Below the pieces are notes generated by a model. It did not search any database and was not told where the DNA came from. It worked only from the letters and a program-made list of their open reading frames with translations. A DNA stretch of 64,000 bases from Phenylobacterium soli (GTDB lineage: Bacteria > Pseudomonadota > Alphaproteobacteria > Caulobacterales > Caulobacteraceae): contig NZ_QFYQ01000001.1 of NCBI RefSeq assembly GCF_003254475.1, positions 1,674,001 to 1,738,000 on the forward strand, in the 5' to 3' direction. The first letter of the stretch is position 1, and each line of letters begins with the position of its first letter. Below, in pieces: positions 777-8,677 of the stretch. The position numbers were made by a program, and so were the translations under genes.

Positions 777-796
777 GGGTGGCCCAGGAGGATCCC

Positions 797-1282
797 GTGG
801 CCGAGCCGGTCCGCATCTGGCTGGGGGTTTCGCACCATGCGGCGTTCCGCGTCGCGGGCTGGGCCGTGGTGCGGGCCGACGAGGCCGGGGTGAGCGGCTT
901 CGCAGGCGGCGAGCGGCGGCTGGACGCCGAGCGCGGCGCGCTGCTGGCGCTGCTGGCGGCGCTCAAGGACCTGCCGGCGGGGCGGTCGGTCGTGCTGACG
1001 ACCAGCGACGCGATTGTCGCCGGGTTTCCGGCGCGCATGGCGGCGGCGCAGGCGGGCGGCGAGGCGCCGGCCGACAACCTCGACCTGTGGGCGGCGCTCT
1101 CGACGGCCCTCGCAGCGCGTGAGGTCAAGATCGTGCAGGCGGCCGCAGCACCCGGAACGCCCCCCGGGACGCCTTTAGCCTTCGCCGCGGCCTGGGCCGA
1201 GTTCGGCCGCGAGCGGGCGAAGGACAAGGGCCCGTTCACGGCGTCCATCCCGAAGCCCAACCTGGCGAAGGCGGGCGTGTAG
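797..1282 (+). CDS. RNase HI-fold protein with degenerate active site
   Basis: This 161-residue protein follows the thioesterase gene by 20 bases. I chose GTG 797 because AGGAGG lies 6 bases upstream; GTG 779 is possible but its ribosome site is too close. Order of segments follows ribonuclease HI: a first strand (RIWLGV), a helix after an ER motif (ERGALLALLAAL), a strand with TTSDAIV where RNase HI has TDSQYV, then DNLDLWAAL and a strand REVKIVQAA. The carboxylates expected in the first strand, in the first helix and in the TDS motif are Val/His, Ala and Thr here, so nuclease activity is unlikely. The C-terminal tail is basic (KDKGPF, PKPNLAK). The function is unknown; nucleic-acid binding without cleavage is my inference. 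Confidence 0.6.
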   Translation: MAEPVRIWLGVSHHAAFRVAGWAVVRADEAGVSGFAGGERRLDAERGALLALLAALKDLPAGRSVVLTTSDAIVAGFPARMAAAQAGGEAPADNLDLWAALSTALAAREVKIVQAAAAPGTPPGTPLAFAAAWAEFGRERAKDKGPFTASIPKPNLAKAGV

Positions 1283-1300: not shown

Positions 1301-2275
1301 CTAGAAGGTCTCGCCGACCATCTTTTCGCTGAGCGCCCAGAGGGCCTTGGCGCGGTCCGGATCGACGGCATAGGCGCGCACGCCGTCGCGGCCGGCCGAG
1401 ACATTGTCGACCACCTCCGCCACGTGGCAGTCCTCGCAGTAGTGGCCGCCGACGACGTCGGCCGGGGCCACGACGGCGGCCCAGACCGAGGTCGCCGCGC
1501 CCTGGGGCACGGTCTTCCACTCGAAGGCGCCGCCGCTGGCGGCCTGGGCGGCGGTGACGTTGGCCAGCATCTGCGCGCGCAGCTCGTCGGTCATGTGGCG
1601 GCCGAGCTCGGTCTGGATGCCGCCCGGGTGGATGGCCGTGGCGCGCACGCCGTGGCCCTTGTGGCGGCGGTCGAATTCGACGGCGAAGAGGACATTGGCG
1701 GTCTTGGCCCGGCCGTAGGCGGCGAAGGGCTCGTAAGGGGTGCGCTCGAAGCCCGGATCCTCGAGGTTGACGTCTGAGAAGCGGTGCCCGGCGGAGGCCA
1801 GGCTGACGACGCGCCCCCCCGCGCGGATCAGCGGGGCGATGCGGTTGACGAACACGAAGTGGCCGAGGTGATTGGTGCCGAACTGGGTCTCGAAGCCGTC
1901 GGCGGTCTTGCCGAACGGCGTGGCCATGACGCCGGCGTTGCAGATGACGACGTCGAACGGCCGGCCGTCGGCCAGCAGGGCGTCGGCGCAGGCGCGGACG
2001 CTCGTCAGGTCGGCGAGGTCGAGGGCGATCAGCTCCAGCGACCCGCCGTTCCTCGCATCGCGCCGGACGGCTTCGGTGGCGGCGCGGGCCTTGTCGAGGT
2101 CGCGGGCGGCGCCGACGATCTCGGCCCCATGCGCGGCGAGGGCGCGGGCGGTCTCGACGCCGAGGCCGGCGGAGACGCCGGTGATGAGGATGCGCGTGCC
2201 GGCGAGGTCGCGGCCGGCGAGGACGTCGTCGGTGGTCGACTTGGCGCCAAGCGGCGCGGCGGTGGTCTCGCTCAT
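1301..2275 (-). CDS. Short-chain dehydrogenase/reductase (SDR), retinol dehydrogenase-like
   Basis: This 324-residue NAD(P)-dependent oxidoreductase has the classical SDR marks: cofactor loop TGVSAGLG (residues 32-39), NAG (113-115), an active-site Ser near 158-161 and Tyr187-x3-Lys191 in AYGRAK. The length, with an extended C-terminus, fits the retinol dehydrogenase/WW-domain oxidoreductase-like subgroup rather than 250-residue SDRs. The substrate cannot be read from sequence. The start ATG 2275 faces a divergent TetR gene, and the shared 91-base gap holds two palindromes (2307-2319 and 2330-2342). The SDR is therefore probably repressed by that TetR protein and induced by a small hydrophobic compound (inference). 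Confidence 0.85.
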   Translation of the reverse strand: MSETTAAPLGAKSTTDDVLAGRDLAGTRILITGVSAGLGVETARALAAHGAEIVGAARDLDKARAATEAVRRDARNGGSLELIALDLADLTSVRACADALLADGRPFDVVICNAGVMATPFGKTADGFETQFGTNHLGHFVFVNRIAPLIRAGGRVVSLASAGHRFSDVNLEDPGFERTPYEPFAAYGRAKTANVLFAVEFDRRHKGHGVRATAIHPGGIQTELGRHMTDELRAQMLANVTAAQAASGGAFEWKTVPQGAATSVWAAVVAPADVVGGHYCEDCHVAEVVDNVSAGRDGVRAYAVDPDRAKALWALSEKMVGETF

Positions 2276-2306
2276 GACAGGCTCCGGGGTTGCGGCTATA
2301 AGAAGT

Positions 2307-2343
2307 GGAGGTTGCCTCCGGATAAATACGGAGGTCGCCTCCG
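2307..2343. promoter_or_regulatory. Twin palindromic operators between the SDR and TetR genes
   Basis: Two 13-base perfect inverted repeats, GGAGGTTGCCTCC (2307-2319) and GGAGGTCGCCTCC (2330-2342), lie with centres 23 bases apart (about two helical turns) in the divergent promoter region. Spacing and position are as expected for TetR-type autoregulatory operators covering both promoters. The intervening bases also allow an alternative hairpin, CCTCCG...CGGAGG. Assignment to the adjacent TetR gene is inference. Confidence 0.65.
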
Positions 2344-2366
2344 TTTTGCAAGTGCAGGGTCGTGAC

Positions 2367-2942
2367 GTGAGCGAAAGGGCGCGCAAGCCGCGGGCGGACA
2401 GCCTGCGCAACCGCGAGCAGCTTCTGGAGGCGGCCAAGGCGGCGTTCGGCGCGGACGGCGCTGACGTGGCCCTGGAGGAGATCGCGCGGCGGGCCGGCGT
2501 CGGCATCGGCACGCTCTACCGGCATTTCCCGACGCGCGACGCGCTGATGGCGGCGGTCTACCGGCGCGAAGTGGAGCAGCTCTCGGCCTCGGCCGAGCGG
2601 CTGCTGGCCGAGCGGTCGGCGAAGGGCGGAGCTGGGGCGGCGCTGGAGGCCTGGCTGCACCTGCTGGTCGACTACATGGCCACCAAGCGGGTGATCGCCC
2701 CGGCCCTGCAGGCCGGCGGCGAGGAGGGCGCGCAGGCCTATGCCTCGGCGGGGCCGGCGCTGTCGGGGGCGATGGAGCGGCTGGTGCAGGCGGCGCGGGC
2801 GGCCGGCGACATCCGCCCCGAAATCTCGCCGCAGGACCTCTACCGGATGCTGATGGGGGTGGCGTTCGGCTACGACCAGCCGGGCTGGGAGGCGAGCGCC
2901 CGCCGGCTGATCGGCGTGATCATGGCGGGGCTGAAGCCCTAA
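2367..2942 (+). CDS. TetR/AcrR-family transcriptional regulator
   Basis: This 191-residue regulator has an N-terminal TetR DNA-binding domain at about residues 12-58: a helix with REQLLEAAKAAF, then VALEEIARRAGVG and the recognition segment GTLYRHFPTRDAL. The rest is the helical ligand-binding and dimerisation domain. GTG 2367 is the likely start; GTG 2352 is an in-frame alternative. It is read away from the SDR gene and presumably represses both through the operators at 2307-2343. The ligand is unknown. The stop codon overlaps that of the convergent XRE gene by 4 bases. Confidence 0.85.
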   Translation: MSERARKPRADSLRNREQLLEAAKAAFGADGADVALEEIARRAGVGIGTLYRHFPTRDALMAAVYRREVEQLSASAERLLAERSAKGGAGAALEAWLHLLVDYMATKRVIAPALQAGGEEGAQAYASAGPALSGAMERLVQAARAAGDIRPEISPQDLYRMLMGVAFGYDQPGWEASARRLIGVIMAGLKP

Positions 2943-3340
2943 CCGCCGTCGCGGACGCAGGCGCGGACGAGGTCGAGCACGGCCCGGCGCGCGCCCGGCC
3001 GCCGCACGCGCGGGAAGCAGTCGGCGAGATCGATGCCCTCGGGCGTCAGCAGGAAGGCGCGGGCCGAGGTCAGCACCTGGTCGGCGGCGGCGGGCTCCGC
3101 ATCGTGCTCGCCCGGGAAGAAGGCGGCCGGATGCGTCTTCAGGACCCGGGCGATGTCCCAGAGCATCGAGGCGCTGACCCGGTTGGCCCCGCGCTCGTAT
3201 TTCTGGACCTGCTGGAAGGTGACGCCGATCGCCTCCGCCAGGCGCTCCTGGCTGACCTGAAGCGCCTTGCGCCGCAGCCGGATCTGCAGACCCACGTGAC
3301 GGTCCACAGCGTGCGCCTCGCCGTCCTCTCCATCCGCCAT
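2939..3340 (-). CDS. XRE-family (Cro/CI-type) transcriptional regulator
   Basis: This 133-residue protein carries a classical helix-turn-helix at about residues 20-65: GLQIRLRRKALQVSQERLAE, then TFQQVQKYERG, a pattern typical of the SinR/HTH_3 family that reads palindromic DNA. The C-terminal 60 residues have no recognisable domain. I start at ATG 3340, giving MADGEDGEAH; an upstream in-frame ATG at 3391 would add 17 basic residues unlike the family. It stands alone between small genes, and its targets cannot be deduced. Confidence 0.8.
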   Translation of the reverse strand: MADGEDGEAHAVDRHVGLQIRLRRKALQVSQERLAEAIGVTFQQVQKYERGANRVSASMLWDIARVLKTHPAAFFPGEHDAEPAAADQVLTSARAFLLTPEGIDLADCFPRVRRPGARRAVLDLVRACVRDGG

Positions 3341-3470
3341 GTCGCAGCCCCCCGCGCGGCGCCCAGCGAGCGAAAGCGAGCGCCGTAACAATCGAGAGTA
3401 GAGGTGGGGGCGGAGCGGCGGAACCGCGTTCCCTACTCAAATCGAGGAGCCGGGCGAAGAATCCCCTGCG

Positions 3471-3677
3471 TCAGGCGGGCAGGGTCGCCCGCGCCGGGAC
3501 GCGGGCGGCGATCTCCACCACATGCCCGGGCCCGGTGATCTGGATCCGCTCGCACTCCGGCATCTGCGCCAGCATGTTCAGCCCGCCAAGGCAGGCCGCC
3601 TCGATCGAACCGGCGACGAGGTAGAGCACCAGCGGCTCGCGCAGCGCCGCGCCGTACCCCGAGATCTTGAAACGCAT
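3471..3677 (-). CDS. Small hypothetical protein (68 aa)
   Basis: The frame encodes 68 residues beginning MRFKISGYGAALREPLVLYL. The middle (about residues 15-38) is hydrophobic with Ala/Leu/Gly, and the end is acidic then mixed (ERIQITGPGHVVEIAARV). There is no signal-peptide cleavage pattern, and the segment is too weak to call a membrane helix with confidence. The longer upstream extension of this frame is Arg-rich noise, which supports ATG 3677. The ribosome site is poor. I do not recognise a family, so it is a plausible but unproven gene. Confidence 0.45.
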   Translation of the reverse strand: MRFKISGYGAALREPLVLYLVAGSIEAACLGGLNMLAQMPECERIQITGPGHVVEIAARVPARATLPA

Positions 3678-4002
3678 GGGTGAAAAAGTTCGCCTAAAAG
3701 GAGATTGGCCAGCCGCCGTCCCAATCGTTCGAAACGCCGTTCTCTGCAAGGGGATTCGAGGAGAAAACGTCTCAAATCGGGGCGGCGCCGGCGTTTTGGG
3801 CGCATATTTATTTCGCCCTATACGCGAAAAGCGCGCGCGTCGCGCCGTTGAGGACCTCATCGGTGATCGGCGATCACCTGCGAATGCTATGGTCGCGGCC
3901 CGCGCCGGACCACGGACTGCCGCGGGCGCCGAGGTCGAATGCACCCAGGGCGGGCGTACCTAATGTTCCAGGTTCGCAGATGTTCGCAAGACGTTCCGTC
4001 GA
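3678..4002. promoter_or_regulatory. 325-base gap with an AT-richer stretch and a perfect palindrome
   Basis: No convincing gene lies here. It holds the upstream region of the 68-residue gene. Bases 3795-3835 are clearly AT-richer than the surroundings. A perfect inverted repeat, GGTGATCGGCGATCACC (3862-3878, 7-base arms, GGC spacer), has no T-run and looks like an operator rather than a terminator. It also lies just beyond the 3' end of the winged-helix operon. The cognate regulator is unknown; the XRE protein at 2939-3340 is one candidate. Confidence 0.35.
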
Positions 4003-4998
4003 TTACCCATTTTGGGGAATTCGCCTGGCCGCCTCTGTTCTCGGATTGAGCTGGTCCCAGACCTCCAGCACCCCGAGCTGGGCGAGCCCGGCGAACATAC
4101 GGTGCAGGTTGGTCAGGTTGTCGACCATGAACTGGATGAGCTGGCCGCCGGCCAGGGCGTCGGCCGGCACGACGAAGCCGGAGGGCAGGCGGCGCACGAA
4201 GCCGCGGTTCACCAGGCTCATGACGTGGCGGCGCGTGGTCTCGGGCGGCAGGCCGACGCGCTCGGCCAGGGCGTTGATGCGGATCGGCCGGCGCAGGCCG
4301 TCGTCCACGAAGTCGCGCGCCTGGACGCCGTCGGCGCCGCGAACGTCGTCGGACAGTCCCTCGACGTTGGCGCAGAAGATGGCCAGCACGACGAAGCCTT
4401 CGGCGAGGTCGCCGATCGACTGCAGCAGCGCCTCGATCACCCGCAGCACGTAGTCGGAGGCGAGGCGCGCGGTGGCGCGGACCGGCGCCTGGGCGGCGGC
4501 GAGGCCGACGGTGGGGCCGGGGAGCTGGGTCAAGAGGTCGAGGTCGCGCAGCTCGTAGTAGAAGACGCGCAGCCGCTCGTAGGCCTTGAAGGCGTTCTGC
4601 AGGTACTCCTGCGAGACCAGGATCTCGGTGGGGACGATGACCCCGCCCTCGACGATCTGGCACAGGCCCTGATCCACCAGCCCCTTGATGCGCCGGCGGG
4701 CGGTTTCGAAGGGCATGTTGAGCGAGCTGGCGATGGCGTTGATGCTGACCGGGCGGCGCAACTCGTCCGGCGGCGCCTCGTCGGCCGCGCCGAACGCCAC
4801 CTGCAGGTCGGCCCGGCGGCTGATCGAGGAGACGTTGGCCTGGACGATGGTGGCCATCAGCAGGGTGTCGAGCAGATGCCGGCCGTCGCGCGCGACGCCG
4901 ATGACGTCGAGCACGTAGCGGACCGCCAGGCGGTTGACGATCCGGGCGTCGGCCACGGACGCCTTGGATCCGAATACCTTCAGGCCATCCATGGACAT
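4003..4998 (-). CDS. Internally duplicated winged-helix protein, copy A (331 aa)
   Basis: The protein consists of two homologous halves, about residues 28-155 and 184-316. Each half has an N-terminal helical stretch rich in Leu/Val/Ala, then a winged helix-turn-helix (about 83-110 and 238-265), then a wing ending in VP (IVP, VVP), then a long helix with an aromatic/Leu pattern. The recognition helices share P-x-E-T-x-R-R: PFETARRR and PPETTRRH. GntR/MarR-like DNA binding is plausible, but no effector domain is recognisable. ATG 4998 has GGAG 9 bases upstream. It lies 25 bases downstream of a paralogue and is surely co-transcribed. The family is not one I can name. Confidence 0.7.
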   Translation of the reverse strand: MSMDGLKVFGSKASVADARIVNRLAVRYVLDVIGVARDGRHLLDTLLMATIVQANVSSISRRADLQVAFGAADEAPPDELRRPVSINAIASSLNMPFETARRRIKGLVDQGLCQIVEGGVIVPTEILVSQEYLQNAFKAYERLRVFYYELRDLDLLTQLPGPTVGLAAAQAPVRATARLASDYVLRVIEALLQSIGDLAEGFVVLAIFCANVEGLSDDVRGADGVQARDFVDDGLRRPIRINALAERVGLPPETTRRHVMSLVNRGFVRRLPSGFVVPADALAGGQLIQFMVDNLTNLHRMFAGLAQLGVLEVWDQLNPRTEAARRIPQNG

Positions 4999-5023: not shown

Positions 5024-5935
5024 TCAGCCCGGCGACGGCTGGCCGGGCAGGCCGAGCCGCTCCCAGGCTTCGATAAGGCCGCGCTCGGCGAGGGCGGTGA
5101 ACAGGCGCTGGAGATTGATGGCGTTGTCGCGGAACAGGGCCCTCATCTCGGGCCGGGCGAGGATCTCCTCGCTGACGGTGAAGCCGCGGCCGGCGCGCAC
5201 GCACCAGCCGAGGTTGGCGAGCTCGGCCAGATGTCGGCGAACGGTCTCGTGCGGCATGCCGATCCGGCGCGCCAGCACGGCGGTGAGGCTGACCGGGGGC
5301 GGCAGGGTGTCGCCCGCGCTGAGCAGGCCGAACAGGGCGAGGCCCGAGATCACGTCGCCGGTGAGCCCCATCAGGAGCTCGGTGGTGCGCAGGAGGTAGT
5401 CGGAGATCAGCCGCAGCGAGGCGCGGATCGGCACCGTCGGCTCCGGCGGGTAGCGCGACGGCGGCAGCGGCTCCATCAGCCCGGCGGCGCGCACGTCCTG
5501 GTAAAAGCGGTGGAGCCGCAGGTGGGCGACGACCACGGACTGCAGATAGGCGGGGGAGGCGAGGAAGCTCTCCGGCACGATCGGGCCCTGGGGCGTCAGG
5601 GCGCAAACACCCAGCTCCTCCAGGCGCCGGGTGCGGCGGCGGACCGTTTCGTAGGGCAGGTTCAGGCTGGCGGCGATGGCGCTCAGCGACACCGGACGCC
5701 GCTCCTCGTCGGGGGCGGGCGATTCCAGTCCGCCGTAGCGCTGGCGCGCCTCCGGGTCGCGCGTCAGAGGGGCGATGTTGGCCTGGTTGATGGCCAGCAC
5801 CAGCAGCGAATCGCGGGTGTCCATGCCGGCGATCCCGGTCCGCGCCTGATCCAGCATGAAGGCGCCGCTGAGCGGGATGAGCGCCCGCTCGCGGAGCTCC
5901 ACCATGCGGTCGGGTGGGGTCAGGGTGTCGGCCAC
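5024..5935 (-). CDS. Internally duplicated winged-helix protein, copy B (303 aa)
   Basis: This is a paralogue of the downstream gene with the same two-half plan. Repeat 1 is about residues 25-153 with PYETVRRR near 94, and repeat 2 is about 180-292 with PHETVRRH near 228. Wing strands end PIVPESFL and FTVSEEIL, aligning with the matching segments of copy A. I chose GTG 5935 because GGGAG sits 5 bases upstream; an in-frame TTG at 5965 is the longest option and has no good ribosome site. Together the two genes encode four copies of one winged-helix unit. DNA binding as pseudo-tetrameric or paired regulators is inference; no known function. Confidence 0.7.
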   Translation of the reverse strand: MADTLTPPDRMVELRERALIPLSGAFMLDQARTGIAGMDTRDSLLVLAINQANIAPLTRDPEARQRYGGLESPAPDEERRPVSLSAIAASLNLPYETVRRRTRRLEELGVCALTPQGPIVPESFLASPAYLQSVVVAHLRLHRFYQDVRAAGLMEPLPPSRYPPEPTVPIRASLRLISDYLLRTTELLMGLTGDVISGLALFGLLSAGDTLPPPVSLTAVLARRIGMPHETVRRHLAELANLGWCVRAGRGFTVSEEILARPEMRALFRDNAINLQRLFTALAERGLIEAWERLGLPGQPSPG

Positions 5936-6238
5936 GTCGTCTCCCGCAACGCCCAGGGGCTTCAAGCGCTACCATTCACCATGATGGATTGACCACCCTA
6001 CGTGCGAACGACGCTCTTGGATGAGGCGTACTTGGCACATCTGACGGCGTGGCGGATTGATCCAGCGCATTCCCGCCTCCAAGACCCAAAGTGGGGAACA
6101 TGGTGTCGGGGAGCCGCTTTTCCACAGCCGCGTGGGGCCTGCGTCATCCCGTCATCTGCGCCGCTCCGAACGGCTCTGGCTTTGTGCGCCCGAGGGCGGC
6201 ACACACCTTAGGCTAGACATCCGGATTGGGGGGGCGAC
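5936..6238. other. 303-base gap, promoter region of the winged-helix operon
   Basis: I see no supportable gene. Short open frames on both strands here have unlikely composition and no ribosome sites. The region must contain the promoter of the leftward winged-helix operon and that of the small rightward gene at 6239. A single DnaA-box-like nonamer, TTTTCCACA (6118-6126, one mismatch to consensus), is present, but alone it does not indicate an origin. Confidence 0.4.
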
Positions 6239-6439
6239 GTGCCCGAAGCGACCTACGTGGCGTTCGTATCGAAGCGCCAGCGCGCCAAGCTGCGCACGGT
6301 TCTGCAGACCGAGGACATGGGCGAACTGACCTGGCGCGAGAAGAAGCGCCTGTTCGGCTCGGAATTCTATTTCTCCGGCCCGCCGACCCTGGCGCGCCAG
6401 GCGCACGCCTATGTGACCAAGTGGCTGTCCACCAACTGA
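6239..6439 (+). CDS. Small hypothetical protein (66 aa)
   Basis: GTG 6239 follows a G-rich run that can serve as ribosome site. The 66 residues (VPEATYVAFVSKRQRAKLR...) are basic and mixed alpha/beta in look, ending with an amphipathic stretch QAHAYVTKWLSTN. No signal peptide, membrane segment, Cys cluster or known motif is visible. Codon use is like that of the neighbours, with strong third-position GC, which supports a real gene. Function unknown. Confidence 0.55.
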   Translation: MPEATYVAFVSKRQRAKLRTVLQTEDMGELTWREKKRLFGSEFYFSGPPTLARQAHAYVTKWLSTN

Positions 6440-6483
6440 CGGGCCGGTGAGGCGGCGGGCTCGGATTCCGCCGGCGCGCGTTG

Positions 6484-6500
6484 CTTGACCTTGGGTCAAG
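6484..6500. promoter_or_regulatory. Perfect inverted repeat upstream of the dioxygenase pseudogene
   Basis: CTTGACCTTGGGTCAAG has 7-base arms and a TTG spacer and starts with a -35-like TTGACC. MerR-family activators bind such dyads inside long-spacer promoters. It sits 76 bases before the ATG at 6576 and just after the stop of the small gene. No MerR gene is in the window, and the matching -10 (TTCCAC near 6510) is weak, so the role is tentative. Confidence 0.35.
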
Positions 6501-6575
6501 GGCGGAGACTTCCACCCTGACAGCCTCCGGCGACCCGCGCGGCAGATCGCGAGCGTGGAGGCGGGAGGATCGTCC

Positions 6576-7833
6576 ATGATCACGCTGCCGCATCACTGCG
6601 AGTACCTGTCCGACGCCTGGATCGACGAGGCGCGGCGCTTCCTCGAGGCCGAGGTCGCGCGGCGCAAGGACGCCCTGGCCGGGCGGCCGTTCTCGTTGAG
6701 CGAGGGCTTCGACGAGGCCCCGCCGCACCTTGGGCTGCCGGACAACCGCGCCGCCTGGCACATGATCTGGGACGGCGAGAGGCTGACGGTCGGCCGCGGC
6801 TTCAAGGCCGACGCGGACCTGCGCATGGAGGGCGAGTACCAGGCGGCGCTGAGCGCGGCCCAGTACGTCGGCGTGCTGGCGCCGGGCGGCCGCGAGCACA
6901 TGCTGCGCGAGCTGAAGGCGCTGTTCGGCAAGGACGCGGTGAAGGCCAAGGGCCGGCTGGACAACCCGGCGGTCGGCGAGATGTTGGACCTGCTGCACGA
7001 CCACATGGGCCGGCGCACGGTGGAGAACCCCGACCTGGCGCACCGCGCCCGGCGCCTGGGCATCGCCAGCAAGATCCGCGAGATGGAGGAGGAGAGCTAC
7101 ACGGTGCTGGAGCGGGCGATCTCGCCCGAGTTCGCCGACGAGGTCCGCGAGGCGACGCTGCGGGCGCTGCTGCCGCACCAGACCGGCGGTCTCAACTGGA
7201 TGCTCTATCACGGGCGCGAGTTCGAGCAGCTGATCCAGAACCCGCTGCTGATGACCCTGGTCGACGCCTCGCTGGGGCGCGGGGCGGTGATCGCCTCGTT
7301 CTCCTCGATCAAGCGGGGGCCGGGGCCCGGGACGATCCCGATCCACACCGACTACGCCCACGTGCCCGAGCCCTATCCGGAGTTCGCCCTGACCGGCGTC
7401 GGGGTCTGGGCGCTGGAGGACTGGACGGTGGCGTCCGGCCCCGACCTGGATCGTGCCTGGGACCCACAAGCTGCGGCGCGCGCCGAAGAAGGGTGAGGGC
7501 CACAACGGCGGCGTTCCCATCGAGATGCCCAAGGGCTCGGTGGTGTTCTTCACCCACGGCGTCTGGCACTGGCAGGGCGACCGCACCGAGCCCAGCGACC
7601 GGGTGACCCTGCACGCCCACTTCAACCGCGGCATCCTGCGCAGCCTGGAGCCGAAGAAGACCGACGTGCAGATGCTGCACCGGAATGCGCCCCGGCTCGG
7701 CGAGATGCTCGGCGAGGACGACTGGTTCGACAAGATGAGCGCCCAGGGCCGCGACTACGGCCGCTTCGCCTACATGGCAAAGCTGCGGGCTTTCACCGAC
7801 CAGCGGAAGCGGGAGATCCTGGAGGGCGCCTGA
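6576..7833 (+). pseudogene. SCP2-like plus phytanoyl-CoA dioxygenase (PhyH)-like protein, frameshifted
   Basis: ATG 6576 has GGAGG 7 bases upstream. The first frame runs 306 codons to a TGA, but similarity leaves this frame after Pro289 and continues one base later. Removing one G near 7443 joins the parts into about 418 residues and restores PTWIVPGTHKLR. Residues 50-150 resemble an SCP2 sterol-carrier-like domain. The rest is an Fe(II)/2-oxoglutarate dioxygenase with the His-x-Asp pair at HTD (257-259) and a distal His and Arg in GVWHWQGDR and its sequel, beyond the break. Such enzymes hydroxylate lipids or small acids. Either this is a recent inactivating mutation or an assembly error; both halves retain good codon use, so decay is not old. 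Confidence 0.7.
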
Positions 7834-7900
7834 GGCTCTCGGCAGGCGGCGCGAGGCGGTGCTAGGCTTCCCTCCAAGAGGACGAAGAGGGAGGCTTTCC

Positions 7901-8677
7901 ATGACCCGCAGACACCTGACGGCGGCGCTCGCCGCGATGACCATCGGTGCGACGACCGGCGGACTGGGCTTGGGCGGCGCCGGCGCGATCGCCGCCGCGC
8001 CGAAGGTCCCGGCCAATATCACGGCCGCCCTGGCCGACAAGGCGCGGCCGGAGGCCGATGTGAAGCGCGACGCCGCGCGCCATCCCGGCGAACTGCTGGC
8101 CTGGGCCGGGGTGAAGAGCGGCGACAAGGCCGTCGATTTCATCATGGGCGGCGGCTACTTCACCCGCATCCTGTCGGCGGCGGTGGGGCCCAAGGGGCAT
8201 GTCTGGGCCTATCAGCCGAGCGAGTTCATCAAGTTCCGCGCCGCCTATGGCGAGGAGCAGAAGACCGTCGCGGGGGCCTATGCGAACGTGACGCCGATCA
8301 CCGCGCCGTTCGGCGAGCTGAAGCTGCCCGACGGGGTGGACCTGGTGCTGACGGTGCAGAACTACCACGACCTGCACCTCAAGCCGTTCCCCGCCGACAA
8401 CGCGGCCAAGCTGAACGCCGAGATCTTCCGCGCCCTGAAGCCCGGCGGGACCTATGTGGTGGTCGACCATGTCGGCCCGGCCGAGGAGGGCACGCCCGAC
8501 AAGCTGCACCGCATCGACCCGGCGCAGGTGAAGAAGGAGGTCGAGGCGGCCGGCTTCAAATTCGTCGGCGAGACCGACCTGCTGCGCGCCAAGGACGATC
8601 CGCACACCGCCAACGTCTTCGACCCCTCGATCCGCGGGAAGACGGACCAGTTCGCGATGAAGTTCCGCAAGCCTTAG
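7901..8677 (+). CDS. Exported class I SAM-dependent methyltransferase-like protein
   Basis: The 258-residue protein starts at ATG 7901 with GGGAGG 6 bases upstream. Residues 1-32 look like a signal peptide with a twin-arginine-like start (TRRHLTA) and an AIAAAP cleavage region. The following Rossmann-fold methyltransferase domain has motif I VDFIMGGGYFTRIL (usually D-x-G-x-G-x-G), an acidic strand end VDLVLTVQNYHDLH and KPGGTYVVVDH. Motif I is unusual in having Met-Gly-Gly-Gly. Export of a SAM-dependent enzyme is odd because SAM is cytosolic, although such proteins are common in Caulobacterales and their relatives. The substrate is unknown. Confidence 0.75.
   Translation: MTRRHLTAALAAMTIGATTGGLGLGGAGAIAAAPKVPANITAALADKARPEADVKRDAARHPGELLAWAGVKSGDKAVDFIMGGGYFTRILSAAVGPKGHVWAYQPSEFIKFRAAYGEEQKTVAGAYANVTPITAPFGELKLPDGVDLVLTVQNYHDLHLKPFPADNAAKLNAEIFRALKPGGTYVVVDHVGPAEEGTPDKLHRIDPAQVKKEVEAAGFKFVGETDLLRAKDDPHTANVFDPSIRGKTDQFAMKFRKP

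Follow-up and report, generated by a model that had tools for sequence, protein, structure and literature searches.

YpdQ and YpeP of Bacillus are bacterial homologues of RNase HI that have been reported to be without RNase H activity. PMC4993169 instead credits YpeP with a likely RNase H-like role. Inactive RNase H domains are described in two other settings in PMC5603734: the RNase H-like domain of the spliceosomal protein Prp8 is inactive and was retained in a structural or regulatory capacity, and the connection (tether) domain of retroviral reverse transcriptase is a degenerated second RNase H which links or tunes. The protein analyzed in this work differed from both. The Prp8 domain is a part of a large eukaryotic protein, whereas the present protein is a stand-alone bacterial RNase HI relative of 161 amino acids; the connection domain shares its polypeptide with an active RNase H next to it, whereas here the active RNase HI is encoded by a separate gene. 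No free-standing bacterial RNase HI pseudoenzyme with an invariant tail was described in the abstract openings of the literature searched, among the matches listed. The protein, named pseudo-RNase HI here, may represent a stand-alone bacterial counterpart to the inactive RNase H domains, carried by many genomes of one family, the Caulobacteraceae. As a member of the pseudoenzyme class of the Prp8 and reverse transcriptase domains, it has support for the fold and for the loss of catalytic acids, selection is indicated, and a non-catalytic role is predicted from sequence and models.

The pseudo-RNase HI gene was located at positions 797..1282 on the forward strand of the window, which is the whole stretch of 64,000 nucleotides of Phenylobacterium soli that was analyzed. 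It encodes 161 amino acids from a GTG start at 797 to a stop codon at 1280-1282, and a Shine-Dalgarno sequence, AGGAGG, lies at 786..791 on the same strand, 5 nt ahead of the GTG. The GC contents of the three codon positions (0.78/0.59/0.93) followed the pattern of a real gene, and this open reading frame is a genuine gene, with relatives of at most 63% identity in other genomes. The statement of the sequence-only reading that it stands directly downstream of a thioesterase gene was borne out: an acyl-CoA thioesterase gene with PF13622 and PF20789 (3..776, forward strand), truncated by the window start, ends at 776 and leaves a gap of 20 bp to the GTG. This thioesterase was found beside none of 70 other loci searched, many of them just 3.4 kb long, and therefore says little on the function of pseudo-RNase HI. 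On the other side, an open reading frame resembling a short-chain dehydrogenase by eye (1301-2512, reverse strand) is convergent with the gene and ends 18 bp past its stop codon; a similar gene was near one other searched locus, L055. The genome also encodes an ordinary rnhA plus rnhB, so pseudo-RNase HI need not substitute for them.

The relationship to RNase HI was faint when the window protein was searched alone. The NCBIfam RNase HI model gave 17.7 bits (E 0.002) against a model cut-off of 160 bits, the best PDB match was 1wsg (E 0.0061), Pfam RNase_H was absent among the matches listed at E<=10, and no RNase H match passed the cut-offs of Pfam, NCBIfam and PHROGs. Profile A1, built from 44 family members, matched E. 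coli RNase HI entries with an E value of 1.8e-14 over positions 1-119; when the members were scanned singly at E<=0.01, hits to the NCBIfam RNase HI model were obtained for 33 of the 44 and hits to Pfam RNase_H for 6. The AlphaFold2 model, obtained from the window protein and one relative, reached a pLDDT of 75 and a pTM of 0.76, with the order of elements of RNase H. RNase HI stood on top of the Foldseek results for this model (1wsj_C, E 6.5e-9), and a second structural aligner gave Z 13.0 and rmsd 3.4 with 134 residues aligned. A second model, in which the relative L032 was placed first, was poorer (pLDDT 61). The RNase HI fold of the window protein, which had been proposed from the sequence, is thus well supported, since predicted structure and family profile both point to RNase HI. 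The residue register is shared with RNase HI (rnhA; PF00075, NF001236) over positions 1-119, in which GGW, G38 and L49 of the core were retained. Compared with RNase HI, D10/E48/D70, H124, N44, N45 and the handle were missing in most or all members of the family, and a tail replaces the third of the protein that holds H124 and D134.

Matches to the window protein at E<=0.001 were obtained in 127 of 299 Caulobacteraceae genomes, at least three of which (G008, G048 and G057) are doubtful, being partial with E values of 2e-4 to 1e-3. Within the genus of the window the gene was present in 59 of 73 sampled genomes and missing from 14; it is therefore dispensable. The profile used to collect family members included the tail, and the score cut-off was 60 bits. 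At 120 loci, spread over 119 genomes, 121 distinct sequences were obtained; the genomes were 118 of the 127 matching ones and that of L032, a locus in a Caulobacteraceae metagenome-assembled genome; the matching genomes left out of the alignment were G008, G048, G050, G057, G105, G229, G236, G260 and G293. All counts over 120 refer to one sequence per locus, the window included. At one locus, L124 in genome G121, the gene was found in two frame-shifted pieces, owing to real decay or an assembly error, and one piece represents it in the counts. The whole profile found matches in 367 of 385 genomes across the class, which, among the matches listed, covered mostly positions 1 to about 120, like RNase HI. 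No relatives were detected in plasmids and phages by tblastn with the window protein, or in viral contigs with family profile A1 and one tail pattern, so nothing at this sensitivity pointed to an origin from mobile elements or phages.

The catalytic positions were assigned by alignment to the ordinary RNase HI that this genome encodes, whose D10/E48/D70 numbering matches that of E. coli. In the window protein, the place of Asp10 is occupied by Gly10 (codon 824..826, forward strand), that of Glu48 by Ala48 (938..940, forward strand; also in the alignment to the best PDB match), and that of Asp70 by Ser70 (1004..1006, forward strand), which is followed by Asp71. The sequence-only reading had given Val/His, Ala and Thr at these places; all three acids are lost and Ala48 was correct, but the other two residues were misassigned. 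The loss turned out to be a family trait, as 116 of 120 members were without at least one of the three acids. D10 was kept in 4/120, E48 in 7/120 and D70 in 20/120, and only L043, L045, L157 and L158 retained all three together. Any acid at all was found at position 10 in 30 members (Glu in 26), at 48 in 7 and at 71 in 62, and 72 members had no acid at 10, 48 or 70, including the L124 fragment, which is gapped at two of these positions. As for acids moved to shifted positions, no complete shifted set of three was seen in the 120 members.

Compared to 34 canonical rnhA sequences, in which D10, E48, D70, N16, N44, N45, N100, W85, W90, W104 and H124 were all kept in 34/34 (for D10 partly by construction, as the filter demanded TDG near the start), H124 was retained in 0/120 family members. 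Different residues were put at D134 by two MAFFT alignments, and the conserved tail acids 135/139 did not align with it. By alignment, the window protein lacks the D10/E48/D70 and H124 residues that mark a type 1 RNase H, and catalysis appears to be gone from most of the family.

The last third of RNase HI, with the H124/D134 region, is replaced in the family by a tail of about 33 residues, of which residues 129-158 of the window protein are encoded at 1181..1270 (forward strand). The family pattern was F129-x3-W133-A-[DE]135-x3-[DE]139 ... K142-x2-G145-x-F147-x3-I151-P152-[KR]153-x-N155-[LMV]-x-K158, and the window protein carries F-x3-W-A-E-x3-E ... G-x-F ... I-P-K-x-N-L-x-K. W133, P152 and N155 together, as well as K/R153, were present in 120/120 members, followed by I151 (119/120), F147 (118), D/E139 (116), G145 (115) and D/E135 (115), and the invariant residues persisted even in members only 32% identical to the window protein. 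Among 72 representatives of less than 80% identity, conservation averaged 3.14 bits per column in the tail vs 2.26 in the body. Because the collecting profile included the tail, the search somewhat favoured sequences that carry it, and with them the observed invariance. The median net charge over the 120 members was +3 for the tail and -1 for the body; the window protein has +3 over residues 129-161 and +2 as a whole, so the basic C-terminus noted earlier is a mild one.

A profile of the tail only (46 rows, 33 positions) matched strongly in 22 of the 299 genomes sampled from the order, all of them Caulobacteraceae, and in 1 of 385 genomes of the class sample, the window's own. One partial match in another family of the order (E 0.006, 15-22 of 33 positions, the locus judged from 300 bases) was discounted, as were six partial matches at class level (E 0.0016-0.0098, 15-22 of 33 positions). 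No convincing match was found outside Caulobacteraceae in the sampled order (299) and class (385) genomes; since the samples come from larger groups, the tail may occur elsewhere. In the AlphaFold2 model with the window protein first, the tail was predicted as a strand and a short helix; in the model with L032 first its pLDDT was mostly <50 and the strand was unsupported. The two models do not agree on the conformation of the tail.

To trace the history of the family, a quick tree (154 rows, 115 columns) was built from the shared region, with the three catalytic columns removed. As canonical rnhA, 35 loci were chosen (29 from the class, that of the own genome, and five adjoining family genes), of which 34 passed the filter and L095 failed. 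A branch with support 99 parted the family from canonical rnhA. The four D/E/D members formed one clade (support 99) beside L041, L052 and the L034 group and outside a clade of 110 rows that held other members (support 83). This placement suggests that enzyme-like members came first and that the acids were lost stepwise later; the order of loss is only a suggestion, because the columns were few and the branches long, as the program warned. Among the pairs listed, the 25 closest by dS, which are not mutually independent, included 23 with a dN/dS of 0.05-0.37, and the other two, of 64% identity and dN/dS about 1, were set aside as saturated. The median was 0.76 for the full set of 6270 pairs, with a maximum of 1.60, and 0.32 for 57 disjoint pairs, with a maximum of 1.39; we judge these values unusable because synonymous sites saturate at this GC3. 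The closest pairs indicate purifying selection on the family gene.

The gene neighbourhoods were compared at 80 loci, namely 39 of a first set, 40 added partly to extend known clades, and the 3.4-kb locus of the window. Neighbour identities were taken from representatives, and the gene caller overlooked the family gene itself in several loci. Five arrangements recurred. The order lolC>lolD>gene>dnaE was found at 4/80 loci. At 16/80 loci ruvC lay downstream on the same strand, in 8 of them no more than 110 bp away; here the gene was often preceded by yebC or mgtC, and ruvC followed by ruvA and ruvB. A dinB gene lay downstream on the same strand at 10/80 loci, followed by clpS and clpA in 7 of the 10. 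At 12/80 loci rnhA was convergent and separated from the gene by a MarR gene. At 9/80 loci there was a TPR-like gene of group g22, so named by eye, accompanied by mgsA in 7 of the 9. None of the five arrangements occurred at 29/80 loci, the window included. In total, dnaE, ruvC, dinB or rnhA was near the gene at 42/80 loci and absent at 38/80, including the window and the nine g22 loci. The four different settings, with genes for DNA polymerase III alpha, RuvC, Pol IV or RNase HI, give a hint of a role in DNA replication or repair, from a gene list drawn up post hoc and with no background rate.

Taken together, the alignments and models suggest that pseudo-RNase HI is probably a binding or docking protein and not an enzyme. 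The fuller proposal, to which we give slightly less than an even chance, is a non-catalytic adaptor or regulator in replication or repair, in which an RNase H platform carries a docking tail. Under this proposal, a copy of RNase HI would have arisen in an ancestor of the Caulobacteraceae alongside the normal rnhA, the last third of that copy would have been swapped for the tail of about 33 residues, and the catalytic acids would then have dropped out stepwise. The RNase H fold would be retained as a structural platform with the tail as functional surface, most likely docking on a conserved partner, through which the protein could serve DNA replication or repair in an adaptor or regulatory capacity. 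The order of loss, the docking by the tail and the existence of a partner are what we infer, and the link to replication and repair is drawn from gene neighbourhoods alone. Of the two roles raised by the sequence-only reading, hybrid binding received less support than the RNase HI fold and the loss of the acids across the family did, and a scaffold is favoured because the tail is invariant.

That first role, a non-cutting binder of RNA-DNA hybrids such as R-loops or primers that would shield or mark them, appears rather unlikely. In its favour, the protein shares the fold of an enzyme that binds such hybrids, and some copies lie near rnhA, ruvC, dnaE or dinB. RNase HI contacts its substrate through N16, N44, N45 and N100, and T43 belongs to its phosphate pocket. 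T43 was kept in 56/120 members and W104 in 100/120, and the window protein has Asn94 at the place of N100. However, N44 and N45 were retained in 0/120, N16 in 2/120, N100 in 12/120 and H124 in none, while W85 and W90 of the handle were gapped in 70/120 and 103/120. The window protein has no Asn at 16, 44 or 45 and Asp in place of T43, and the median net charge of the body (-1) speaks against hybrid binding as well. The hybrid-recognition set of RNase HI thus seems mostly lost in the family, which makes docking to protein likelier than hybrid binding.

Explanations that keep or rebuild an activity were weighed on the same alignments. A rebuilt site is possible because conserved acids exist elsewhere, and a new cryptic enzymatic or ligand site could consist of D/E39, R40, D/E96, R108, D/E135, D/E139, K142 and N155: acids were found at 39 in 109/120, at 96 in 111, at 135 in 115 and at 139 in 116 members, K/R at 40 in 118/120 and at 108 in 112/120, and N155 in all. 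We consider such a site unlikely, as the long C-terminal helix of the model places acids 135 and 139 a single turn from each other, which fits a docking surface too, and acid 96 is also conserved in canonical rnhA (position 102) and may therefore be structural. An RNase HI of reduced or altered activity, borrowing acids from neighbours such as Asp71 or Glu10, can draw on the four members with D10/E48/D70, on acid 71 in about half of the family and on Glu10 in 26 members; against it stand the 72 members without acid at 10, 48 and 70, the Gly10/Ala48/Ser70 of the window protein, and the alignments, in which H124 is unmatched and D134 lacks a certain equivalent, so that this explanation is very unlikely. 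Patchy presence in 127 of 299 genomes, varied gene contexts and one frame-shifted copy would be expected of a decaying, functionless remnant of a duplicated rnhA, but the low dN/dS of the closest pairs listed and the tail residues held invariant down to 32% identity leave it highly improbable. The adaptor or regulator with a docking tail is preferred to each of these. A narrower form of it, in which the protein is a docking factor of the replication or repair machinery, its tail recruits or regulates a polymerase, a resolvase or RNase HI, and the D/E/D members are living intermediates, is possible yet doubtful. With the acids still present in some members, the passage from enzyme to binder would be open to stepwise dissection, and the invariant tail offers a direct handle for finding the partner.

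Two further observations were made at single loci. Genome G217 contained two copies of the family gene (L071 and L072), each with its own MarR gene and rnhA, which may reflect a segment duplication or contamination. The D/E/D members L043 and L045 adjoin a gene for a large histidine kinase with PAS and receiver domains, which lies at 2183-4933 on the reverse strand of L043, as assigned by clustering with the L045 copy, and at 5562-8360 on the forward strand of L045, where it was identified by Pfam.
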